NCBI GenBank assembly: GCA_029555925.1
Contig: JAKPQU010000133.1
Coordinates: 1 to 8,117 of the forward strand
Reading direction: 5' to 3'
DNA length: 8,117 bases
Origin: Bacillota bacterium
GTDB taxonomy: Bacteria > Eremiobacterota > SpSt-956 > JAKJGF01
Shown here: piece by piece, positions 1 to 8,117 of the stretch
How the letters are laid out: each line of letters starts with the position of its first letter
How positions within the stretch are numbered: position 1 is the stretch's first letter
Program-made: the position numbers and the translations under genes
The notes under the pieces: model-generated
Told to the model about the DNA's origin: nothing
Databases searched by the model: none
Seen by the model: only the letters and a program-made list of their open reading frames with translations

Positions 1-28
1 GTCACGCGTCACGCGTTACGTGTCACGA
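1..28 (+). repeat. 28-bp heptamer array, RTYACGC family, copy 1
   Basis: Four exact 7-bp units, three matching GTYACGC or GTTACGT and the last GTCACGA. The same 28-bp design recurs at 2529-2556, 3752-3779, 8014-8041 (reverse) and 8059-8086. The array begins at the window edge, so its left flank is unseen. It lies upstream of the histidine kinase gene and outside any coding region visible here. Confidence 0.85.
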
Positions 29-72
29 GAGCATATATGGGTTATTTATGCTCACTTCAGTAAAATAGGACA

Positions 73-104
73 TTACTCACTGTTCATTGCTCACTATTCA
101 CTCC
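73..104 (+). repeat. Degenerate heptamer array, TCACTG family, copy 1
   Basis: A partial unit is followed by units of the form TCACTGT, TCATTGC, TCACTAT and TCACTCC with a clear 7-bp period. It is the same family as 3801-3842 and, in reverse, 3655-3689. Its right end abuts the inverted repeat at 103-140. It is more degenerate than the RTYACGC arrays, so it may be older. Confidence 0.65.
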
Positions 105-140
105 TTCTTAATTATGGATTTTTAAAAAAAATTAAGAAGG
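103..140. repeat. 11-bp perfect inverted repeat (operator or terminator candidate)
   Basis: CCTTCTTAATT at 103-113 is exactly complementary to AATTAAGAAGG at 130-140, across a 16-nt A/T-rich spacer. It sits immediately upstream of the -35 box of the promoter at 144-172. On the + strand it is followed by GTTTTG, a short T-run, so it could terminate a gene entering from the left. Its position would equally suit an operator. The sequence does not decide between these. Confidence 0.5.
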
Positions 141-143
141 GTT

Positions 144-172
144 TTGACTTTATGTGTGTAATATTATAGAAT
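144..172 (+). promoter_or_regulatory. Sigma70-type promoter for the histidine kinase-prs unit
   Basis: TTGACT (144-149) matches the -35 consensus at five of six positions. TAGAAT (167-172) matches the -10 consensus at five of six, with the ideal 17-bp spacer. Transcription would start near 179, giving a short leader with GGGAG (182-186) as ribosome-binding site eight bases before the ATG at 195. An alternative -10, TATTAT, overlaps at 162-167. Confidence 0.65.
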
Positions 173-194
173 ATAACGTGCGGGAGTTAGCTTT

Positions 195-1328
195 ATGACT
201 TTTTCTTATTCTATAGAAAATATAGTAAAAGAGTCAAAAAAGGATTTTCTTAAGAAAATCGTGGAAGAATTTGAATCTTCTCTTTATCCTGATCTTGTTG
301 AGATTTATTCTCCTCTGCCGTTTTTTATAAATGAATTAATTGAAGGATTAACTCACCACGGTACCGATAATATTCCCCGTTTATATTATTTCATCCAGAC
401 AAAAAAGGTTCATAAAGATGCCATTCCTTTCAAAAAAGCTCTCAAAGGTTTAAAAATAATCAGAAATGTATTCCTGGATATCTGCCTGAAGAATGTTCCG
501 GAACAGGATATGAATAAAGTCTATACAGACATGGTATCTTATTTCGATGAAATAGAAGAAAGATTTATGTTTGATATGGAAGATTATTTTAAATATGCAA
601 ATAATGATACACTCAGAGATAGAATTATAAAAGCTCATAAAATGGCAATTATAGGCAAACTTACCAGTTATGTGGCACATGAATTCAATAATATTCTTAC
701 TGTAACAAAAAACTGGGCTCAGCTTGGTCTGCTGGAAAAGGATGAAATAATAAGAAACAAAGCGTTCAATGGCATAGTGAGCAGCAGTGAGAGAGGCAGC
801 AGACTTACTAAAAGCATTTTGAACTTCAGCAGAAGAGCAGAAATGGAACCATGTAAGATAAATATAAATGATTTTATAGATGAAATACTTGTAATTGTTG
901 AAAAAAAATTAATCAAAGATGGTATAGATCTTAAAAAAGCTTATGGAACTGTGCCGGAAATCACAGTGGATAAGTTTAAATTGAGGGAAGCTCTTTTTAA
1001 TATACTGGTTAATGCCTGTGCATCTCTCACGGGTTCTGTGAAAAAAATTATTGTGGCTACAAGTTTAAAAGAAGATAAAGTAGAAATAACTTTTTCAGAT
1101 ACCGGGGAAGGTATTGGATTTGAATATCAGGATAAAATATACGAGCCGTTTTTTACCACAAAACTTTTGAATAAAGATGAAATTGGCTGGTCTACAGGTA
1201 TAGGTATGGGTATCACAATAGCCTATGATATAATCAAGGGTCATGGTGGTGAAATAAATATACAGAGTGAACAGGGAAAGGGAACGGATTTTACTATTTA
1301 TCTGCCTGTCAATAAAGAGGGTTCATAA
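195..1328 (+). CDS. Soluble orphan sensor histidine kinase
   Basis: A 377-residue cytoplasmic kinase expected to autophosphorylate on histidine and pass the phosphate to a response regulator not present next to it. Residues 1-145 are helical, without membrane segments, and I do not recognise the domain; it loosely recalls RsbRD-type N-terminal sensor regions. The HisKA segment has the phospho-acceptor His162 in VAHEFNN. The ATPase domain shows the N-box around Asn273 (FNILVNA), the G1 box DTGEGIG (302-308), the F-box EPFFTTK (317-323) and the G2 box GIGMG (335-339), so all catalytic boxes are intact. The start is supported by GGGAG at 182-186 and a promoter at 144-172. The pyrophosphokinase gene begins 16 bp downstream, indicating cotranscription. 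There is no PAS, HAMP or receiver domain. The input signal is unknown. Confidence 0.9.
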   Translation: MTFSYSIENIVKESKKDFLKKIVEEFESSLYPDLVEIYSPLPFFINELIEGLTHHGTDNIPRLYYFIQTKKVHKDAIPFKKALKGLKIIRNVFLDICLKNVPEQDMNKVYTDMVSYFDEIEERFMFDMEDYFKYANNDTLRDRIIKAHKMAIIGKLTSYVAHEFNNILTVTKNWAQLGLLEKDEIIRNKAFNGIVSSSERGSRLTKSILNFSRRAEMEPCKININDFIDEILVIVEKKLIKDGIDLKKAYGTVPEITVDKFKLREALFNILVNACASLTGSVKKIIVATSLKEDKVEITFSDTGEGIGFEYQDKIYEPFFTTKLLNKDEIGWSTGIGMGITIAYDIIKGHGGEINIQSEQGKGTDFTIYLPVNKEGS

Positions 1329-1344
1329 TATCTAAGGAGGTTCT

Positions 1345-2477
1345 ATGACAAATCACAATGATTTAGTTGTAATTGCAGGAAGAGCGGGTAAGCAATTTGC
1401 TCAAAAAGTAATAAGAGAATTTTCAAAGTTAAAAGATTGTCCTGTTCCGGATTTGACCCTGGGAGAAGTGGATATAATTGATTTCCCGAATGGCGAATTG
1501 AGTGCAAGGTTGAATGTGAATTTAAGAAAAAAGGCAGTTCATGTTTTTCAATCAATAATTCTTGGAAAAAATAGAAATATATTCAAAGATTTTTTGAAGT
1601 ATTTGTAATAAATGATGCCCTTAAAAGAGCAGGTGCTCAGAGTATTATAAATTACTGGAGTTTTTTGCCTTTTCAGAGGCAGGATAAAAAAACAAGAGGA
1701 AGAGAGCCGATTTCTGCAAAACTTATATTTGATCTTCTGGCTACTTCGGGAGGTAAGTATTTTAACCGTATAGTTACCGCCGAAATGCATACAGATGCAG
1801 CACAGGGATTTGCCGATGTTCCTGTTGATAATGTAAGAGCATTACCTCTGTTTTTACTTTATTATAAAAATCATGCCATATTAAAAAATGTAGATATAAA
1901 TGAACTGGTCGTAGTATCTCCTGACACGGGAGGAGCTGCGAGAGCCCGTTTCTTTGCTGAAAGACTCGGTACAAACTGTGCTATTATAGAAAAAAGAAGA
2001 TTTTATGATGAGACAGGTAAAACAGAATCTTTGCAGCTTATAGGAAATGTAAGAGATAAATATGCTATAATGATAGATGATATAATAGATACAGGCAGTT
2101 CTGTCCTGAACGGTGCAAATCTTCTCTGGGAAGAAGGGGCCAAAAAAGTTTTTGCATGCTGTACTCACGGATTGTTCAGCGCAGATAAGAAAGGTATACC
2201 GGCTGAAAAGAAATTTTATGATGCAAATATTGAAGTTCTTACGACAGATACTATTCCCAGGGGACAGAGTTATCATGATACATCTTATAAATGGCTCAGG
2301 ACTGTCTCTTTAGCCAGATATTTTGCAGATGCCCTTTACTCGAATCATACAGGGCAATCGTTCAGCGAATGTCTGCAAAATCATTTAAATGAAGCTATGG
2401 CCAATCAGGTGAACATAGAAGATTATCTCATACCGATAAAGCCTAAAGAATTATGGGAAATTGACGATGATAAATAG
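1345..2477 (+). CDS. prs: Ribose-phosphate pyrophosphokinase, frame broken by a -1 shift
   Basis: PRPP synthase, making phosphoribosyl pyrophosphate from ribose 5-phosphate and ATP for nucleotide, His and Trp synthesis. The first frame (1345-1608) gives the N-terminal half, with FPNGELSARLNVNLR and a VFQS segment, and stops at TAA TAA. The rest continues in the -1 frame to 2477, with INDALKRAGAQS, RQDKKTRGREPISAKL, MHTDAAQGF (catalytic-type His), VDNVRALP, SPDTGGAARAR, the KRR of the flexible loop and the PRPP loop DDIIDTGSS. Joining at 1590-1596 gives 377 residues and aligns FLEVFVINDALKRA with the family's LMELLLMIDALKRA. That is about 60 residues longer than usual bacterial Prs, partly from a C-terminal tail. 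Start: AAGGAGG at 1334-1340 before ATG 1345. The second frame has no ribosome-binding site and only a late TTG at 1665, so it is not an independent gene. The break could be a real mutation, a one-T sequence error or programmed frameshifting; the rest of the gene shows no decay. Confidence 0.85.
1590..1596 (+). other. T TTT TTG heptamer at the prs frame break
   Basis: In the upstream frame the codons read TTT TTG after a T, which has the form X XXY YYZ of -1 slippery sites. Slippage here would lead into GAA GTA TTT GTA and restore the prs reading frame. It is also a run of six T, where a single-T deletion or sequencing error is easy. No strong stem follows at the usual 5-9 nt; the nearest is a 4-bp stem GAGC/GCTC at about 1627-1638. 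Confidence 0.5.
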
Positions 2478-2528
2478 CGGGGCATTTAATTTTATGAATA
2501 GAAATTTATTAATAGTCTCTTTCCTCGC

Positions 2529-2556
2529 GTCACGCGTTACGCGTTACGCGTCACGA
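2529..2556 (+). repeat. 28-bp heptamer array, RTYACGC family, copy 2
   Basis: Four 7-bp units (GTCACGC, GTTACGC twice, GTCACGA). It lies in the 117-bp gap between prs and the zinc-ribbon gene. Its flanks resemble those of copy 3: TTTCCTC on the left and ATTCTCATATAAA on the right, so the duplicated segment is about 50 bp. I see no convincing terminator or promoter elsewhere in this gap. Confidence 0.9.
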
Positions 2557-2594
2557 TTCTCATATAAATCGGAATACTATAAAGAGGTAATAAA

Positions 2595-2879
2595 ATGAGT
2601 TTTTTCAGAAAGAAATTTTATAAAAAATCAAATAATATCTGTCCGAGATGTGAGTGGCCACTGGAAAATATGATGTCAAAGTATGTAAGCAGGGAAGGAG
2701 ATTTTACTTTTTTTCACTGTTTTAACTGTGGCCAGGATTTTTACAAAGCCCCTGCAATACTTATTAAAACAGATAAAGGACCTGTTGAGCAGATGATTCT
2801 GAAAAAAGTTGAAGTAGAAATTGAATATATGATAAATCCTAAAAAAAGTTATCTGAAGAAATTAAATAAATGGAATTAA
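2595..2879 (+). CDS. Small zinc-ribbon protein of unknown function
   Basis: A 94-residue basic protein with two CxxC knuckles, Cys16/Cys19 (CPRC) and Cys42/Cys45 (CFNC), separated by 22 residues. This is the standard spacing of a zinc ribbon. The N-terminus is very basic (KKFYKKS). The C-terminal half is rich in Lys and Glu, includes KKVEVEIEYM and ends in a Lys-rich tail. I cannot assign a function; zinc-mediated nucleic-acid or protein binding is only an inference. The start is supported by an AAAGAGGT site seven bases before ATG 2595. Its TAA (2877-2879) overlaps the stop of the convergent response regulator, with no terminator between them. A heptamer array lies just upstream. Confidence 0.8.
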   Translation: MSFFRKKFYKKSNNICPRCEWPLENMMSKYVSREGDFTFFHCFNCGQDFYKAPAILIKTDKGPVEQMILKKVEVEIEYMINPKKSYLKKLNKWN

Positions 2880-3646
2880 GTCCATCCGACAGAATCTTTA
2901 AATTCTTTTGCATATTTTCTGCTTACAGGAACTTCGCTTTTTTTGCTGTCATTCATTTTTAACATATAGGAACCGCTGAACCATGGAATAATCTCTTCTA
3001 TATGGTTGATATTCACAAGAAAGCTTTTATGACATCGTAGAAAAATTTTATCAAGTCTTTCTTCCAGTTCTTTCAGGTTATATTTTACGTCAAATTCTTC
3101 CTCTTTTGTTACTAAAAAGCAGTCTCTTCCGCTGGCATAAAAATAGAGTATATCCTGAATATCAACGAGAATACGATTTTCTTTACCTTTTCTCCGGGCT
3201 ATGACTCTGGTCAGTTTTGGCGGGCCGGAAACTTCAAAGATTTTCTCTGTTGCTCTACCGCCGGATTTTTCTTCCATTATAGAAACAACTCTTTCCAGTG
3301 TCTTTTTTAATCTTTTAGGATGGGCAGGTTTCAGTATATAATCAACAGCAGCGAGTTCAAAAGCTTTTATGGCATATTCATCATAGGCGGTAACAAAAAC
3401 TATGACAGGTTTCTCTTCCATAAAGGTAATTTCTCTTGCCAGTTCAAGTCCGTCAATGCCTGGCATTTGAATATCAAGAAACACTATGTCAGGTTTTTTT
3501 TCTGCTATAATTCTGAGGGCACTCAGGCCCGATGATGCCTCTCCGATAACGTCTATGTCGTCACTTCCTTCGTTTATGAGTGCAATAAGCTCTTCTCTTG
3601 CAGGATCTTCATCGTCTACTACTATGGCTGTGTAAATAATTATCAC
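2876..3646 (-). CDS. LytTR-family response regulator (LytR/AlgR type)
   Basis: A DNA-binding response regulator of up to 256 residues, the likely partner of the sensor kinase at 3823-5049. The receiver domain (about 6-122) has the acidic pair Asp11-Asp12, phospho-acceptor Asp58 in FLDIQMPG, Thr86 in VTAYDE and Lys106 in LKPAHP. After a linker, the LytTR DNA-binding domain (about 145-253) shows ILYFYASGRDCFLVT, FLRCHKSFLVNINHI and VPVSRKYAKEF, all typical of the family. LytS and LytR genes usually abut, but here 176 bp of repeats intervene. The longest frame starts at GTG 3646, yet the only ribosome-binding site, AAGGAAG (3646-3652), overlaps that GTG. Initiation is therefore more likely a few codons in, at ATT 3640 or 3637, which also matches the usual LytR N-terminus. 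Its stop overlaps the convergent zinc-ribbon gene. Confidence 0.92.
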   Translation of the reverse strand: MIIIYTAIVVDDEDPAREELIALINEGSDDIDVIGEASSGLSALRIIAEKKPDIVFLDIQMPGIDGLELAREITFMEEKPVIVFVTAYDEYAIKAFELAAVDYILKPAHPKRLKKTLERVVSIMEEKSGGRATEKIFEVSGPPKLTRVIARRKGKENRILVDIQDILYFYASGRDCFLVTKEEEFDVKYNLKELEERLDKIFLRCHKSFLVNINHIEEIIPWFSGSYMLKMNDSKKSEVPVSRKYAKEFKDSVGWT

Positions 3647-3652
3647 TTCCTT
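3635..3652 (-). promoter_or_regulatory. Ribosome-binding site pointing to a non-AUG start
   Basis: On the minus strand AAGGAAGTGAT matches the anti-SD complement AAGGAGGTGAT at ten of eleven bases. It runs through the GTG of the longest frame, leaving zero spacing. In-frame codons at usable distance are ATT (3640-3638, spacing 5) and ATT (3637-3635, spacing 8); no ATG or TTG is available. AUU initiation is known for E. coli infC, so it is plausible but unproven here. Confidence 0.45.
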
Positions 3653-3654
3653 TT

Positions 3655-3689
3655 ACAGTGAGCAGTGAGCAGTAATCAGTGATCAGTGT
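3655..3689 (-). repeat. Heptamer array, TCACTG family, copy 2 (reverse)
   Basis: Five units of NCAGTGA form on the + strand (ACAGTGA, GCAGTGA, GCAGTAA, TCAGTGA, TCAGTGT), i.e. TCACTG units on the minus strand. The array is just upstream of the response regulator's ribosome-binding site. Bases 3655-3668 are a perfect 14-bp inverted match to 3823-3836 of the facing array. Confidence 0.85.
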
Positions 3690-3695
3690 TCGCTC

Positions 3696-3726
3696 AATAT
3701 AACAACCATGACCTGTTCGGTCACAA
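3696..3726 (-). promoter_or_regulatory. Weak candidate promoter with dyad for the response regulator
   Basis: On the minus strand TTGTGA (3726-3721) and TATATT (3701-3696) are separated by 19 bp. A dyad TGACC-5 nt-GGTCA (3709-3723) overlaps the -35 and part of the spacer. A long spacer holding a dyad is the layout of MerR-type promoters, but no MerR-like gene is present and the match is weak. Confidence 0.25.
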
Positions 3727-3751
3727 CGAAGTATGAGAATTTTTTCCTCCC

Positions 3752-3779
3752 GTCACGCGTTACGCGTTACTCGTTACGA
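3752..3779 (+). repeat. 28-bp heptamer array, RTYACGC family, copy 3
   Basis: Four units (GTCACGC, GTTACGC, GTTACTC, GTTACGA). Left flank TTTCCTCC and right flank ATTCTCGTATAAA repeat those of copy 2. The array is also framed by a 9-bp near-inverted repeat, TATGAGAAT (3732-3740) and ATTCTCGTA (3779-3787), with one mismatch that would be G-U in RNA. It lies between the sensor kinase and regulator genes. Confidence 0.9.
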
Positions 3780-3800
3780 TTCTCGTATAAACCGTTAACG

Positions 3801-3842
3801 CTGACTGGTAACTGGTCACTGGTCACTGCTCACTGTTTACTG
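3801..3842 (+). repeat. Heptamer array, TCACTG family, copy 3, overlapping a gene end
   Basis: Six units (CTGACTG, GTAACTG, GTCACTG twice, CTCACTG, TTTACTG). Positions 3823-3842 lie inside the sensor kinase gene: read on the minus strand they form its last codons (V-N-S-E-Q) and the TGA stop. The array faces the one at 3655-3689 in inverted orientation. Confidence 0.9.
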
Positions 3843-5049
3843 CTATTTCCACCTTTGTTCCTTTATCAGGTTCGCTCATTATTTCTACAGTTGCTTTTTC
3901 TTTGAACATGGCTTTTATTCTTTTTATAACATTTTGAAGTCCTATAGATTCAGATTCTTTATCAAAATCTAAAATTTCTTTTAATCTTTCCGCCTCTATG
4001 CCTTTGCCATTATCTTCTATTTCTATAGATAGGCCTTTCTCTTTCGAGGTAATCCTTAATTTTATAACAAGTTTCCTTCCATCTTCATGAAAACCATGTT
4101 TGATAGAATTTTCAATAAAGGGCTGAATGGCCATGAAAGGTATTTTAAATGTTAAAGAATTTTTATCAATGTTCTGAATAAATTCAAGTTTATCTCCGAA
4201 ACGGGCTTTTTCTATTTCCAGATAAAATTCAAGATTTTCCAGTTCTTCTTCGATAGAAATAATGTTCTGTGTTGTTTTAAGTGTGACCCTCAGAAACTCC
4301 GAAAGGTTCTGTATGAGTTCCCTTGTTTTTTCCGGGTCTTTTCTGCTGAAAGATGCTATCGTATTGAGGGCATTGAATAAAAAATGCGGTTTAATCTGGG
4401 ATTGAAGGAATTTCAACTGGGCTTTCGCATTCAGTTCTTCTATTTTTTGTTTTTCTTTTTTATCCTGAAGGGTTTTCATGATAAACAGATACATACATAC
4501 GGCAGCACCGTTAACTAAAAGAAAAGGCAATGTAATTAAAAATATAAATCTTTTCCTCACGAATATTTCAGGATTTGCCCATGGAAGAATAAATGTCTGC
4601 ATAACCCCTATAAAAGCTCCTACGAGAAAACCCTGTACCATAGATATTTCCCGCCTGTCTTTTTTGCCGGAGAACAGGCCCGTTATTCCTCCTGTCAGAC
4701 CTGCTATGACTGTTACAATAATAAATTTCGCCGATGGCGGAAAGGTTATAAGCCTGAACATTGCTCCTATCAAACCTGAGCCAATCCCTACAATGACTCC
4801 GCCTTTAAGACCTGCTACTATCACTACAAGAACAGATGTGTCAAGATAAATTTGCTTTTCATAGATGGCAAAAAAAGACCCCACGCTGGATATCAGGCCG
4901 AAGACAAGAATGAGATGAATTTTATCTTTCCAGTCAGTCCTGCGGGTAAATATATCTCCTTCAAACATGAGATGACTCATGATGAAGGCTATCATAATGG
5001 CAGGAGAAACACCTCTGAGTAAAAACTGGGTGAATTCTATCAGTTTCAT
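3823..5049 (-). CDS. LytS-like membrane sensor histidine kinase (5TM-LYT)
   Basis: A 408-residue integral membrane kinase, expected to phosphorylate the LytTR regulator downstream. Residues 1-192 hold about six hydrophobic segments (near 9-29, 43-62, 73-98, 107-127, 137-155, 167-192) with GIGSGLIGAMFRL, as in 5TM-5TMR_LYT sensor modules. A short coiled linker (193-212) leads to the His_kinase domain, with phospho-acceptor His222 in IKPHFLFNALN. The ATPase domain has the N-box PFIENSIKHGF (Asn314), the G1 box EDNGKGI (345-351) and the G2 box SIGLQNV. All catalytic parts are present. The start ATG lies 4 nt after the TPR gene's stop and lacks a strong ribosome-binding site, so translational coupling is likely. 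The extreme C-terminus is encoded by a heptamer repeat. The ligand is unknown; LytS relatives respond to cell-envelope state or small metabolites. Confidence 0.93.
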   Translation of the reverse strand: MKLIEFTQFLLRGVSPAIMIAFIMSHLMFEGDIFTRRTDWKDKIHLILVFGLISSVGSFFAIYEKQIYLDTSVLVVIVAGLKGGVIVGIGSGLIGAMFRLITFPPSAKFIIVTVIAGLTGGITGLFSGKKDRREISMVQGFLVGAFIGVMQTFILPWANPEIFVRKRFIFLITLPFLLVNGAAVCMYLFIMKTLQDKKEKQKIEELNAKAQLKFLQSQIKPHFLFNALNTIASFSRKDPEKTRELIQNLSEFLRVTLKTTQNIISIEEELENLEFYLEIEKARFGDKLEFIQNIDKNSLTFKIPFMAIQPFIENSIKHGFHEDGRKLVIKLRITSKEKGLSIEIEDNGKGIEAERLKEILDFDKESESIGLQNVIKRIKAMFKEKATVEIMSEPDKGTKVEIAVNSEQ

Positions 5050-5053
5050 ACCA

Positions 5054-6532
5054 TTATCTGCTGCTGCATGCTTTTTTTAATTCTTTTGCATATTCATAGC
5101 CAGGATCCAGGTCAAGTGCCTTCTTTGCACATTTGCCTGCTTCCCCGTACTGCTTTATGGCATATAAAGACATACCTTTATAATACCATACATATGCAGA
5201 CTGTGAATCTATTTTTATGGCTTTATCGAAACATTTAATAGCTTCTTTATAATTTTTCAGCCTGTATAAAGATGCTCCTTTTTCTGCCCATGCGTCGAAA
5301 TAATCAGGTGAAAGTTTTATTGCCTTATTGTAACATTTCACAGATTCCGTATATCTTTGCAGGTCATAGAGAACATATCCTTTGCTATACCAGGCAAAGT
5401 CATTATTCTGGTCTATCGAAAGAGATTTGCTGAAACATTTCAGGGCATCATCATATTGTTTCAGACGATATAATGCCCATCCTTTATCGTAGAATGCTTC
5501 GCTGTATTCAGAATTAATAGCGATGGCTTTATTGTAGGATTTGATAGCCTCTTTGTACTTTTTTTGAGCGCTGAGACAGAGCCCCCTGTTATCCCATACT
5601 ACATATAAATTATCGTTGATTTCCAGGGCTTTATCATAACATTCCAGGGCTTCATCATATTTTTTCAGGGCATAAAAACATAATCCTTTACTGTTCCAGG
5701 CATTTTCATCTTTACTGTCCAGTTTTAATGTTATATCGTATGCTTCAATGGCATCATTATATTTTTTCAGAGCATGTAAAGCATAGCCTTTATTATACCA
5801 GGCACTGGAGTATTTCGGATTAATATCTGTTGCTTTCTCGCATGCTTTAATAGATTCTTCATATTTCTCCATGTCATACAATGTATAGGCCCTGTTATTC
5901 CAGGCAATATAATGGTCAGGCTTCAGTTCCACTGCCTTATCATAGCATTCGATAGCCTCTTTGTATTTTTTCTGACTGTTCAGGATAAGGCCTTTATTGT
6001 TCCATGTATCGGCATAGTTCGGATCAATATCCAGAACCTGTTCGTAACATTTGAGAGCTTCCGTATATTTTTTCTGATAATATAAAGCAAGTCCTTTCCT
6101 GTTCAATGCCTCTTTATAAGACGGGTTACTCTTCAGGGCTTTATCATAGCATTTAACAGCATCATTATATTTTTCTTTATCGTTCAGGAGGAGGCCTTTC
6201 CCATACCAGCTATTTGAATTTTCAGGATTGATTTCAAGAGCTCTGTCATAACATTTAACAGCATCATCATCTTTTCCCAGATAATATAAAGACAATCCCT
6301 TTTTGCCCAGCGCTTTATCGGATTTGCTTTGAATATTCAGAACCTTATCATAATAGGTGATTGCTTCATCGTACTTACCCTGCTCATATAATTTGTCTCC
6401 GCTGGCGAGCCATTGTTCCGGCATATAATAATAATATGCCGCTCCTCCGCCAATCAATGCAATGCCGGCACATCCCACTGTGATTACAACGACTATAACT
6501 ACTACAAGTATGATTTTTGTGGTATTTGACAT
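5054..6532 (-). CDS. Membrane-anchored protein of 13 tandem TPRs
   Basis: A 492-residue protein with a hydrophobic N-terminal segment (about 7-30), followed directly by 13 uninterrupted 34-residue tetratricopeptide repeats (39-480) and a 12-residue tail. Each repeat has the TPR pattern W-x-x-K/R-G-x-x-L-Y near its start, K-Y-x-E/D-A in the middle and a D/N-P-like turn at its end. The signal segment has a single Lys and no clear cleavage site, so it is best read as an N-in anchor placing the superhelix outside the cytoplasm. Cys21 (ITVGC) is only a poor lipobox. TPRs bind proteins or peptides; the partner is not visible, but the 4-nt gap to the sensor kinase suggests it works with that kinase. 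The start is supported by GGGAGGA at 6539-6545. Nine repeats carry Cys at the same position. Confidence 0.92.
   Translation of the reverse strand: MSNTTKIILVVVIVVVITVGCAGIALIGGGAAYYYYMPEQWLASGDKLYEQGKYDEAITYYDKVLNIQSKSDKALGKKGLSLYYLGKDDDAVKCYDRALEINPENSNSWYGKGLLLNDKEKYNDAVKCYDKALKSNPSYKEALNRKGLALYYQKKYTEALKCYEQVLDIDPNYADTWNNKGLILNSQKKYKEAIECYDKAVELKPDHYIAWNNRAYTLYDMEKYEESIKACEKATDINPKYSSAWYNKGYALHALKKYNDAIEAYDITLKLDSKDENAWNSKGLCFYALKKYDEALECYDKALEINDNLYVVWDNRGLCLSAQKKYKEAIKSYNKAIAINSEYSEAFYDKGWALYRLKQYDDALKCFSKSLSIDQNNDFAWYSKGYVLYDLQRYTESVKCYNKAIKLSPDYFDAWAEKGASLYRLKNYKEAIKCFDKAIKIDSQSAYVWYYKGMSLYAIKQYGEAGKCAKKALDLDPGYEYAKELKKACSSR
5093..6418 (-). repeat. Thirteen 102-bp coding repeats (TPR units)
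   Basis: The TPR region is an exact multiple of 102 bp (13 x 34 codons) with no insertion between units. DNA copies are diverged but keep recurring words, for example forms of tttatcataacatt on the + strand at the KCYDKA position. This points to expansion by unit duplication followed by divergence. Confidence 0.85.
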
Positions 6533-6556
6533 ATTTATTCCTCCCTGCAGGCTCTT

Positions 6557-6588
6557 TATTCCCCCTGCCCGAAGAGGGAGGGGGAATA
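6557..6588. repeat. GC-rich hairpin between flavoprotein and TPR genes
   Basis: TATTCCCCCT-G-CCC (6557-6570) pairs with GGGAGGGGGAATA (6576-6588): 13 bp with one bulged G and a 5-nt loop. It lies in the 62-bp gap of the minus-strand operon. No T-run follows on either strand, so it is not a standard terminator. It may stabilise or process the mRNA between the two genes, or be a copy of a dispersed palindromic repeat. Confidence 0.65.
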
Positions 6589-6594
6589 TGGTGG

Positions 6595-7992
6595 TTATTC
6601 AAAAAAATTTTTAACTTCTTCAAATGAACTGCCAGTACTTATGGCTCTGGCAACCTGTTTTTCCCCGTCAATATTACCGAGCATGATACAACCTGTAAGT
6701 TTACCGTCAGAAATTACTGCTTTTTTATAGACAAAGGTTTTTTCATCTTTATGAACTTCAGATTGAAGTTTGCCATCTGTATCTATATCTCCCATGGAAA
6801 CCAGATCTATTCCAACTACTTTTAATTTATGAGAGAATAAAGTACCTTTATATTCTTTGCTGCCAGGCTTTACCATGTTTTCTCCTGCAATTTCTCCCTG
6901 TTCTTTTGCCGGCGGCCATATACCGTAAAGTCTTCCGTCATGCTCTATGGCATCTCCTGCACCATAGATATTTTCCACACTGGTTTTCATATAATTATCT
7001 ACAACGATACCTTTATTCACTTTAATACCTGCAGCAAGTTTCAGATCCGGTCTTACTCCTGCGGATATAATGATAAAATCTCCTTCCAGAACTTCCCCTG
7101 ATTTCAGAGTAAGCTTCATCATGTCGCCGGAAGGTTCGATCTTTTCCGAAGTTTTGCCGAGATAAAATTCAAATCCCATAGAAACAAGCTGTTTTTCCAG
7201 TATGGCTGCCCCTTCTATATCCAGCTGTCTCGGAAGGAGTCTCGGGAAAAATTCAACTACCTTTACCTTAAGTCCGAGTTTCCTCAAGCTGTTACCTGTT
7301 TCAAGTCCCAGCAGTCCTCCTCCTATGAGTATGGCTGATTTTGCCGATTCAGCCAGTTCCATTATCCTGTCCGTATCATGTTTGTCTTTTACGGTAAAAA
7401 CCTTCTTTGAATCTGCTCCCGGTATGGGAGGCACAAAACAGTTTGCTCCCACTGCAAGAAGCAGTCTGTCATAGACAAAAACTTTCCCGTCTTTTGTAAT
7501 AACTTCATTTTTTTCAGAGTTTATCGAAACTATTTCCGTATTCATATGAAGATTTACCCTGTTATCGGCGAACCATTTTTCCCCTGAAAGAATACATTTC
7601 TCAAAAGGTACTTCTTTTGCAAGATATTCTATTAATTTCGGCCGGTAGTAATAGGGAACATTTTCTTTTGTAAAGACATCGACAGTTCCTTCTTTATCGA
7701 GTTTTCTTATTTTTGCCGCAGCAGAAGCTCCTGCCGCTCCGTTTCCTATGATTACATATTTTGTCATTATCCGTTCCTCCTTTTCAAGTTCTGCAATATG
7801 AAATGTATGGATATCTTTCTTATAATCTATCCCCGGTTCCTTCATGAGAGATAAAAAATCTTCATTACAGATTTTCGACGTGGCAGCAAGATAATTTTTA
7901 CAATAGATACAGGAACAGGATTCTCCGTCCGAACTGATGTTCTTTAAAATCTCTGCTGTTTTATCAGGATTTATTAATATAGTGTATTTCAT
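6595..7992 (-). CDS. FAD/NAD(P)H-dependent oxidoreductase with Cys-rich N-terminal extension
   Basis: A 465-residue protein. Residues 76-465 are a pyridine nucleotide-disulphide-type flavoprotein: FAD site GNGAAG (83-88), YYYRPKLIEYLA as in NADH:rubredoxin reductases and the NirB N-terminus, ATG-like AVGA (180-183), NAD site GGGLLG (224-229) and the second FAD motif GAGDA (344-348). It lacks the redox-active Cys pair of disulphide reductases, so it probably passes NAD(P)H electrons to a carrier such as rubredoxin or ferredoxin; the partner is not in the window. Residues 1-75 are a separate small domain with Cys26, Cys28, Cys31 and Cys42 (CSCIYCKNY) and a GIDYKKD motif, resembling small stand-alone CxYCxNF proteins. 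The ATG at 7992 has a poor ribosome-binding site, whereas Met76 (ATG 7765-7767) has a near-ideal one, so two products or a 390-residue form starting at 7767 are possible. It is first gene of the minus-strand unit. Confidence 0.9.
   Translation of the reverse strand: MKYTILINPDKTAEILKNISSDGESCSCIYCKNYLAATSKICNEDFLSLMKEPGIDYKKDIHTFHIAELEKEERIMTKYVIIGNGAAGASAAAKIRKLDKEGTVDVFTKENVPYYYRPKLIEYLAKEVPFEKCILSGEKWFADNRVNLHMNTEIVSINSEKNEVITKDGKVFVYDRLLLAVGANCFVPPIPGADSKKVFTVKDKHDTDRIMELAESAKSAILIGGGLLGLETGNSLRKLGLKVKVVEFFPRLLPRQLDIEGAAILEKQLVSMGFEFYLGKTSEKIEPSGDMMKLTLKSGEVLEGDFIIISAGVRPDLKLAAGIKVNKGIVVDNYMKTSVENIYGAGDAIEHDGRLYGIWPPAKEQGEIAGENMVKPGSKEYKGTLFSHKLKVVGIDLVSMGDIDTDGKLQSEVHKDEKTFVYKKAVISDGKLTGCIMLGNIDGEKQVARAISTGSSFEEVKNFFE
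7776..7784 (-). promoter_or_regulatory. Strong internal ribosome-binding site (start at 7767)
   Basis: AAAAGGAGG on the minus strand lies eight bases before ATG 7767-7765 and inside the open frame that begins at 7992. It could start a flavoprotein without the Cys-rich domain. It encodes Glu-Lys-Glu-Glu in the long form, so the resemblance is partly codon-driven, but spacing and match are near ideal. Confidence 0.65.
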
Positions 7993-8013
7993 AACTTATT
8001 AGAATTTAAGTCG

Positions 8014-8041
8014 TCGTGACGCGTAACGCGTGACGCGTGAC
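8014..8041 (-). repeat. 28-bp heptamer array, RTYACGC family, copy 4 (reverse)
   Basis: On the minus strand the units are GTCACGC twice, GTTACGC and GTCACGA. It differs from copy 1 at one base only. It sits 22 bp upstream of the flavoprotein start, in the gap between divergent genes, facing copy 5. Confidence 0.9.
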
Positions 8042-8058
8042 GGGTTTAATCCCTGCGC

Positions 8059-8086
8059 ATCACGCATTACGCTTTACGCATTACGA
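8059..8086 (+). repeat. 28-bp heptamer array, RTYACGC family, copy 5 (variant)
   Basis: Units ATCACGC, ATTACGC, TTTACGC and ATTACGA. It keeps the four-unit length and the terminal ACGA but changes the first base of each unit. It is inverted relative to copy 4 across a 17-bp spacer containing GGG-6 nt-CCC. Confidence 0.85.
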
Positions 8087-8097
8087 GGTCATTATTT

Positions 8098-8117
8098 ATG
8101 GATAGTTATGAAACTAA
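8098..8117 (+). CDS. Possible 5' end of a + strand gene, cut by the window
   Basis: ATG GAT AGT TAT GAA ACT stays open to the window edge (M-D-S-Y-E-T). GAGG at 8085-8088 is nine bases upstream and would serve as ribosome-binding site; its first two bases are the end of the heptamer array. Only six codons are visible, so this is a guess and no product can be named. Confidence 0.35.

Follow-up and report, generated by a model that had tools for sequence, protein, structure and literature searches.

Tandem TYAC heptamers of a bacterial contig as arms of intergenic palindromic repeats

Why should a short contig carry what looks like the same 28-bp array of four heptamers at five places, each time with the same end? 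The contig is JAKPQU010000133.1 (assembly GCA_029555925.1, Bacillota bacterium; Genome Taxonomy Database lineage Eremiobacterota), and its whole stretch of 8,117 nt is hereafter called the window. A first-pass annotation had read its arrays of RTYACGC units as a defined element of constant length that spreads or is maintained as a whole, or as a protein-binding site. The five arrays are not five independent copies of a 28-bp unit; the 28-bp element is mostly an arm of larger palindromic repeats. On balance, we think that the arrays are arms of intercistronic palindromes resembling repetitive extragenic palindromes (REP) and bacterial interspersed mosaic elements (BIME), that one subfamily of them is a miniature inverted-repeat transposable element (MITE), and that they would act at transcript ends. 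The arrays and array-bearing segments of the window are as follows.

1–28, forward strand: copy 1, GC-type heptamer array with ACGA end; inner side truncated by the window start
77–101, forward strand: weak TG-type array with cores at 77, 84 (TCAT), 91 and 98, upstream of the histidine kinase open reading frame (ORF); read from the sequence and a Tandem Repeats Finder row at 71–100
2520–2571, no strand: 52-nt segment holding copy 2, with 90% identity to 3743–3794
2529–2556, forward strand: copy 2, GC-type heptamer array with ACGA end
3657–3683, reverse strand: TG-type heptamer array; lies 10 nt upstream of the start of LytR (3646) and is the arm opposite the arrays at 3752 and 3815
3743–3794, no strand: 52-nt segment holding copy 3, counterpart of 2520–2571
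3752–3779, forward strand: copy 3, GC-type heptamer array with ACGA end
3815–3841, forward strand: TG-type heptamer array that overlaps the LytS-type kinase gene at its 3' end
7978–8117, no strand: MITE-like palindromic element, right end truncated by the window end
8014–8041, reverse strand: copy 4, left arm of the MITE-like element, GC-type array with ACGA end
8059–8086, forward strand: copy 5, right arm of the MITE-like element, GC-type array with ACGA end

The five arrays lie where the annotation had placed them, each with its ACGA end. Three RTYACGC units followed by RTYACG, at up to 3 mismatches, match the window six times (one match is a register shift of copy 2) and match none of 200 dinucleotide shuffles of it. 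That every array has exactly four RTYACGC units is true of the core only. Specifically, all seven strong window arrays contain four exact TYAC cores, but unit 3 deviates in three copies (GTTACGT in copy 1, GTTACTC in copy 3 and TTTACGC in copy 5), and the seven arrays count 4, 5, 5, 7, 4, 4 and 5 units when three of the four core bases suffice. The palindrome ACGCGT, which had been assigned to the unit junctions of most copies, is absent from copy 5. Sister arrays in which TG replaces GC after the core had been overlooked (3657–3683 on the reverse strand, 3815–3841, and a degenerate one at about 77–101), and the general unit is TYACNNN. Because copies 2 and 3 share the 52-nt segment and copies 4 and 5 are the arms of one palindrome, the five ACGA ends are not independent. 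Rfam gave no match at gathering level in the window.

Genome-wide counts were taken from one relative, G001, the closest genome, whose LytS orthologue is 70% identical. The sample comprises 120 regions, 1.45 Mb of about 5 Mb. Many of its contigs were picked because they had array matches, so array densities are inflated, while orientation, pairing and end counts should suffer less. Chains were required to hold at least three exact cores, which hides shorter arrays, and genes were called crudely by a longest-ORF rule with ORFs of at least 80 codons. Two RTYACGC units followed by RTYACG gave 51 matches, against 3 for the reversed control.

A MITE-like subfamily with heptamer arms

Window 7978–8117 and 20 complete copies from the G001 sample align as one element with mutually unlike flanks. 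The length between the matched ends is 106–159 bp, and one copy, of 106 bp, has almost lost its arms. The element has TATAGTNNNTTTCATAAC at one end, GTTATGAAACTAACTATA at the other and two heptamer arms in the middle; its inverted terminal repeats are TATAGTNNNTTTCATAAC and GTTATGAAANNNACTATA, of which the right one is truncated in the window by the window end. At up to one mismatch, G001 contains 102 matches to the terminal repeat and 4 to the reversed control, and the same flanks recurred when GC-type arrays were sorted by flank. Coding capacity is absent, with the frames that read outward from the ends mostly closing within tens of codons. The alignment shows that window 7978–8117 is a non-autonomous MITE-like element spreading as a whole. 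The idea of a defined element that spreads as a whole thus survives for copies 4 and 5, borne out by the 20 copies in the relative, but the element is a palindrome of 106–159 bp rather than a 28-bp unit.

Two negative results stand on the other side. In 19 of the 20 copies, no direct repeat outside TATAGT...ACTATA exceeds expectation (for k=2, 6 against 7.9 expected); the palindromic TA at the tips could conceal a TA duplication. Also, no longer copy and no outward pair at transposon spacing with the same ends was found among the matches listed in the fragmented G001 genome, where the transposase search covered Y1 only. No phage record resembling window 7960–8117 was found, and the G001 right-end sequence has no exact match in viral contigs.

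The ACGA end is mainly a mark of this subfamily. It is present in 23 of 25 MITE arms. Outside the MITE, 22 of 31 GC-type arrays end in YACG, and A follows in 13 of the 22; the remaining nine, which do not end in YACG, are excluded from the end count. For comparison, A follows TYACG in 77 of 233 cases in array-free intergenic DNA and in 21 of 49 arrays of other flavours. Because the end is so much commoner in MITE arms than in other arrays, and because copies 4 and 5 belong to the MITE while copies 2 and 3 share a segment, the ACGA end is mainly due to common descent, with a weaker preference elsewhere.

The element also touches a gene. The upstream start (7992) of the FAD oxidoreductase ORF (6595–7992) lies inside the left MITE-like terminal repeat, and the first residues of the ORF, MKYTI, are therefore encoded by the element; a second start, at 7767, fits the family start.

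Inverted pairs and stop codons

Neighbouring arrays less than 200 bp apart are mostly inverted. In the G001 sample and the window together (pair and fold counts include the window's own pairs), 50 pairs have the order '-+', 6 '++', 6 '--' and 1 '+-', and the MITE accounts for 12 of the 50. Unpaired G001 arrays often have a short partner: a two-unit opposite arm lies inward within 100 nt in 60 of 115 and a same-orientation arm in 13 of 115, while on the outer side the same arrays have 4 opposite and 9 same-orientation arms.

The arrays are also oriented with respect to genes. Between 25 nt before and 12 nt after a stop codon, 82 arrays read GTRA on the coding strand and 1 reads TYAC. The polarity noticed in the first-pass annotation is therefore real, and this orientation toward stop codons is its clearest form. 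In 50 of the 82, an array unit supplies the stop codon of the gene (unit 1, 2 or 3 in 24, 17 and 9). Because GTRA arrays stop any frame that enters them, we limited the count to wholly intergenic arrays behind an intact stop. In this set, 23 of 52 arrays lie within 6 nt of the stop, against 3.5 expected from uniform placement; in the opposite orientation, 1 of 61 wholly intergenic arrays lies within 6 nt of a stop, against 4.9 expected. Seven arrays were found deeper than 25 nt inside a gene; each reads TYAC on the coding strand and is no more than about 60 nt away from the annotated start. Arrays occur in 26 of 101 convergent, 84 of 449 co-directional and 26 of 149 divergent intergenic regions, a count from which 20 of 211 arrays fall out because they lie outside the regions used. 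These counts show the palindromic layout and the gene-end position of the arrays, as the 20 aligned copies show the dispersal of one subfamily as a unit.

A typical element would consist of [NNNGTRA]n, a spacer or hairpin, and [TYACNNN]n between two genes, often with one arm against a stop codon. The MITE-like subfamily spreads as a whole, and the unit number would later shift by gain or loss of 7-bp units. When transcribed, an arm pair is predicted to fold into a strong hairpin. For window 8011–8090 the predicted folding energy is −38.8 kcal/mol. In the fold test, which took 49 of the 50 pairs, those with gaps below 100 nt, the median z was −4.1 for 37 non-MITE pairs (30 of them below −2) and −6.25 for 12 MITE pairs, compared with −0.78 for 40 array-free controls (7 below −2). 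By analogy with REP and BIME, we infer a role of the arm pairs at 3' ends: such a hairpin may protect the 3' end, attenuate transcription or insulate the next gene. In addition, the GTRA units would place TGA or TAA stops in all three frames behind the gene.

Two observations count against this picture. For 55 of the 115 unpaired arrays, the two-unit test detected no second arm, and the NNN letters of the two arms agree in 1.39 of 3 positions over 38 non-MITE pairs, compared with 1.08 after shuffling (p 0.018). Since these letters match barely above chance, strong selection for pairing is disfavoured, which would accommodate a core-reading protein.

The stops could instead be the function. Three GTRA units give TGA or TAA in all three frames, and the arrays might be kept as fail-safe stops behind genes, as suggested by the 82-to-1 orientation and by stop codons that fall in the first three units. 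In G001, one-base changes of the core are commonest at the fourth base, where the stop is kept (fourth 30, third 6, first 13 with 10 in the reversed control, second 7). In seven other genomes pooled, however, the order is reversed (fourth 1, third 7, first 9, second 18, the last mostly TAAC, in which the stop is lost), and arms beside gene starts and arrays between divergent genes need no stop. Stop-codon selection as the keeper of the TYAC core is thus favoured in one genome and opposed in the pool, we rejected it in that capacity, and fail-safe stops as an explanation of the arrays seem very improbable to us.

Apart from these counts, some sequences recur next to the arrays. The hairpins GGGGCGAAC...GTTCGCCCC and GGGGCAGAAC...GTTCTGCCCC stand directly inward of G001 arrays at L163, L168, L172, L174, L119, L136 and other loci. 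An inner sequence before the right arm, ATTACATTATCGT, is common to several '-+' pairs (spacers of L126, L133, L161 and L180), which suggests, from the shared sequence, a second dispersed element with heptamer arms.

Unit number and the TYAC core

The G001 sample holds 144 arrays of period 7, 128 of them intergenic, compared with 3, 5, 1, 15, 7, 7 and 20 arrays of periods 5, 6, 8, 9, 10, 11 and 12. Chains of exact TYAC cores at step 7 have three cores in 112 cases, four in 61, five in 20, six in 8 and more in 10 (maximum 15); at steps 5, 6, 8 and 9, chains of three number 1, 3, 1 and 4. Step-7 chains of three or more also arise with other cores (CAYT 48, TYAG 65), partly through overlap with the same arrays. 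Separate from these, a second heptamer family, TCAGCNN, makes 14 step-7 arrays of three or more in G001 (e.g., L084 9897, L122 14377 and L106 8422).

The first-pass annotation had named as refuting a broad genome-wide distribution of unit numbers that favours neither four units nor the ACGA end. Its constant length fails in G001, where the distribution is broad, from 3 to 15 units. The ACGA end fared better in the same scan, mainly through the MITE. GC-type arrays outside the MITE have three units in 11 cases, four in 9, five in 6, six in 2, and seven, eight and ten in 1 each, and MITE arms have three in 8, four in 12, five in 4 and six in 1. With degenerate units counted, all 211 G001 arrays divide into 45 of three units, 65 of four, 49 of five, 26 of six, 12 of seven and 14 longer. 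Four is therefore no rule in G001, and it is the mode only when degenerate units are counted. Because it is the commonest number on that count and all seven strong window arrays have four exact cores, a preference for four may nevertheless exist.

Where a single differing unit stands between two identical ones (n=45), the changes fall 0 times on T, 14 on Y, 0 on A, 3 on C, and 17, 4 and 7 times on the three N positions. The T and A of the TYAC core are spared.

Broad unit numbers, and arrays that are homogeneous internally and differ from each other, are what neutral slippage would leave if the heptamers were ordinary 7-bp simple repeats growing and shrinking in unconstrained 3' flanks. A change of flavour at the LytS/LytR gap between the window and a close locus, L001, points the same way. 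On the other hand, slippage does not account for an excess at period 7 alone, for the sparing of the TYAC core, or for the biases in pairing and orientation. It is quite unlikely to be the full explanation, but it may still set the unit number.

The spared core keeps a protein-binding reading of the arrays in play. A DNA-binding protein, perhaps of the ribbon-helix-helix type, might read TYAC every 7 bp and bind contiguous units cooperatively, so that the arrays would be roadblocks or boundaries facing transcription that enters the intergenic region. Both the changes listed above, which spare T and A while Y and NNN vary, and the keeping of the 7-bp core register with mixed NNN in unrelated genomes would suit such an operator. 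There is also a precedent: the omega/ParB protein of pSM19035 binds unspaced WATCACW heptads in direct or inverted orientation, and four contiguous heptads are the minimum for full ParA activation (PMC9499535, as far as the available part of that paper goes). By analogy, this four-repeat minimum is a striking parallel to the preferred four here. The two systems share unspaced 7-bp units, a TCAC core and direct and inverted arrangements. However, the parS sites are few, six on the plasmid, and have fixed flanking W, whereas the G001 chromosome has hundreds of arrays, flanked by letters that differ from flavour to flavour; neither outer W of WATCACW is conserved in the G001 or window arrays. An omega search of G001 gave one match, of 26 bits, below the 33.3 cut-off. 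We consider the operator unlikely, though worth keeping in view.

The omega match was rejected as a homologue; by eye it looks like an antitoxin gene beside a ParE-like ORF. Its site, L207 1346–1904, holds a ribbon-helix-helix-like ORF, which gave the sub-threshold Omega_Repress match, and the ParE-like ORF and resembles, by eye, a small toxin-antitoxin pair.

In a broader form of the operator, which is rather doubtful, a widespread and unrecognised putative protein would recognise a TYAC every 7 bp and cover arrays of about four units; these would mark gene edges and be oriented against transcription entering the intergenic region. If it were true, the known heptamer repeats of several phyla would be operators of one boundary system, and the MITE-like palindromes would be its carriers.

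Four-unit arrays are found very unevenly, in 42 of 292 genomes listed as relatives of G001. Array matches exceed the reversed control in G213 (317 against 10), G236 (99 against 15) and G272 (35 against 2). Because the reversed control exceeds the real pattern in several genomes (e.g., G255, G165, G189, G009, G210, G202 and G238), other heptamer types must exist and the TYAC core is not universal. In G236 and G272, NNN is mixed within arrays and the 7-bp register of the core is kept. The small samples of G213, G236, G272 and G214 hold 5, 10, 7 and 1 arrays, too few to judge the stop-codon rule; G236 has 2 '-+' pairs, and in two of its arrays the stop is the third unit. In G213 (L188 56–3750), TYAC arrays reach 23 units, run in one direction and lie inside a gene in 3 of 5 cases, a different use of the same heptamer.

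Known repeats and the genes of the window

The arrays are a variant of known intergenic heptamer and palindromic repeats; they are real and partly explained. The heptamer repeats of cyanobacteria, Xanthomonas and Beggiatoaceae are so far without an agreed origin or role. With the fixed architecture seen here (TYAC core, inverted pairs, one-orientation arm at the stop, MITE-borne subfamily), it becomes testable whether such repeats originate by transposition or by slippage, and whether they act as RNA hairpins, stop arrays or protein sites. Tandem heptanucleotides dispersed in the genome, the STRR sequences of cyanobacteria, are said to have been described by Mazel and coworkers in 1990; the first-pass annotation had drawn this likeness, which holds at the level of description and not of unit sequences.

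The heptamers of Xanthomonas and Nostoc, GGGAATC and GGGGA(C/T)T (Rehm et al. 2015, PMC4692102), are, with those of Beggiatoaceae, the closest known. In the available part of that paper, they are dispersed, mostly intergenic tandem arrays, prefer four units with a range of 2–26 (four is the tolerant mode here), lie in one orientation close behind stop codons on the sense strand, and occur as single arrays and, in Xanthomonas, also as inverted pairs, all as seen here; no general association with mobile elements is reported there. They differ in having G-tracts, for which quadruplexes were proposed, and no TYAC core, whereas the main flavours here have no G-tract of three. TAACTGA repeats of marine Beggiatoaceae, some Cyanobacteria and Bacteroidetes (MacGregor 2015, PMC4679880) are likewise intergenic heptamers with patchy distribution and fixed orientation to genes, in sets of two to six repeats in the main genome. 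In what could be consulted of that source, however, they have one fixed unit, lie mostly just upstream of start codons and include one reported inverted set. Many MITEs and TAACTGA are described from the Thiomargarita genome (PMC4853749, in part).

Among palindromic repeats, REP and BIME are similar in forming inverted dimers behind coding regions, between co-directional and convergent genes (Di Nocera et al. 2013, PMC3733652, available part). Their dimers have spacers of 20–100 bp, and some are nested in longer palindromes bounded by TATA. Each REP unit is a short hairpin tagged GTAG or CGTC, whereas the arms here are TYACNNN arrays, whose flanks were read with no dedicated tag search. GTAG-tagged REP are linked there to RAYT transposases; in G001, an array was found at 0 of 5 intact Y1_Tnp loci, where few were expected because the loci are 2.3–3.4 kb long, and a sixth, broken Y1 locus has a two-unit chain. 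At L182, a Y1 transposase ORF stands beside a long opposite-strand TnpB-like ORF, by eye an IS605-like element. BrickBuilt of Porphyromonas gingivalis (Klein et al. 2015, PMC4596501, in part) is likewise a non-autonomous element between genes, with a tandem array enclosed by short inverted ends, but its unit is 23 bp and runs in one direction, whereas the element here has two arms in inverted order, each built of 7-bp units. Among the matches listed in the literature searched, which covers few subscription papers, neither a MITE with such arms nor this TYAC family was found.

A close locus, L001 (JAKJGF010000064.1, 'Bacillota bacterium isolate UR.bin48'), was found through the LytS-type kinase (3823–5049). 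Relatives with about 90% identity in LytS, P0003 and P0004, are on contigs that reach 35 and 37 kb. Another source gives the label Candidatus Eremiobacteraeota to a protein identical to the L001 PRPP synthetase, so the phylum labels differ. The gene order kinase, PRPP synthetase, small ORF (94 codons in the window, 98 in L001), LytR and LytS is common to both. The gap holding copy 2 (2478–2594) measures 117 bp in the window; its L001 counterpart is 22 bp long and has no array. Between LytS and LytR lie 176 bp in the window against 73 bp in L001, where the array is of other flavours (TCACTTT, TCACCTC). Copy 2 thus lacks a counterpart in L001, and the LytS/LytR site has kept an array with different letters. 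Upstream of the kinase, weak and differing heptamers are present in both. The window LytS ends inside the array at 3815–3841: its tail, VNSEQ and the stop (3823–3825), consists of array units, and the stop is the third GTRA unit. The L001 LytS ends in GER inside another heptamer flavour.

No plasmid near-identical to window 1345–2500 was found. A frame break near 1600 divides the PRPP synthetase gene of the window (1345–2477) into two ORFs, while orthologues are intact in L001 (12680–13810) and P0122; the break is either a sequencing error or the mark of a pseudogene.

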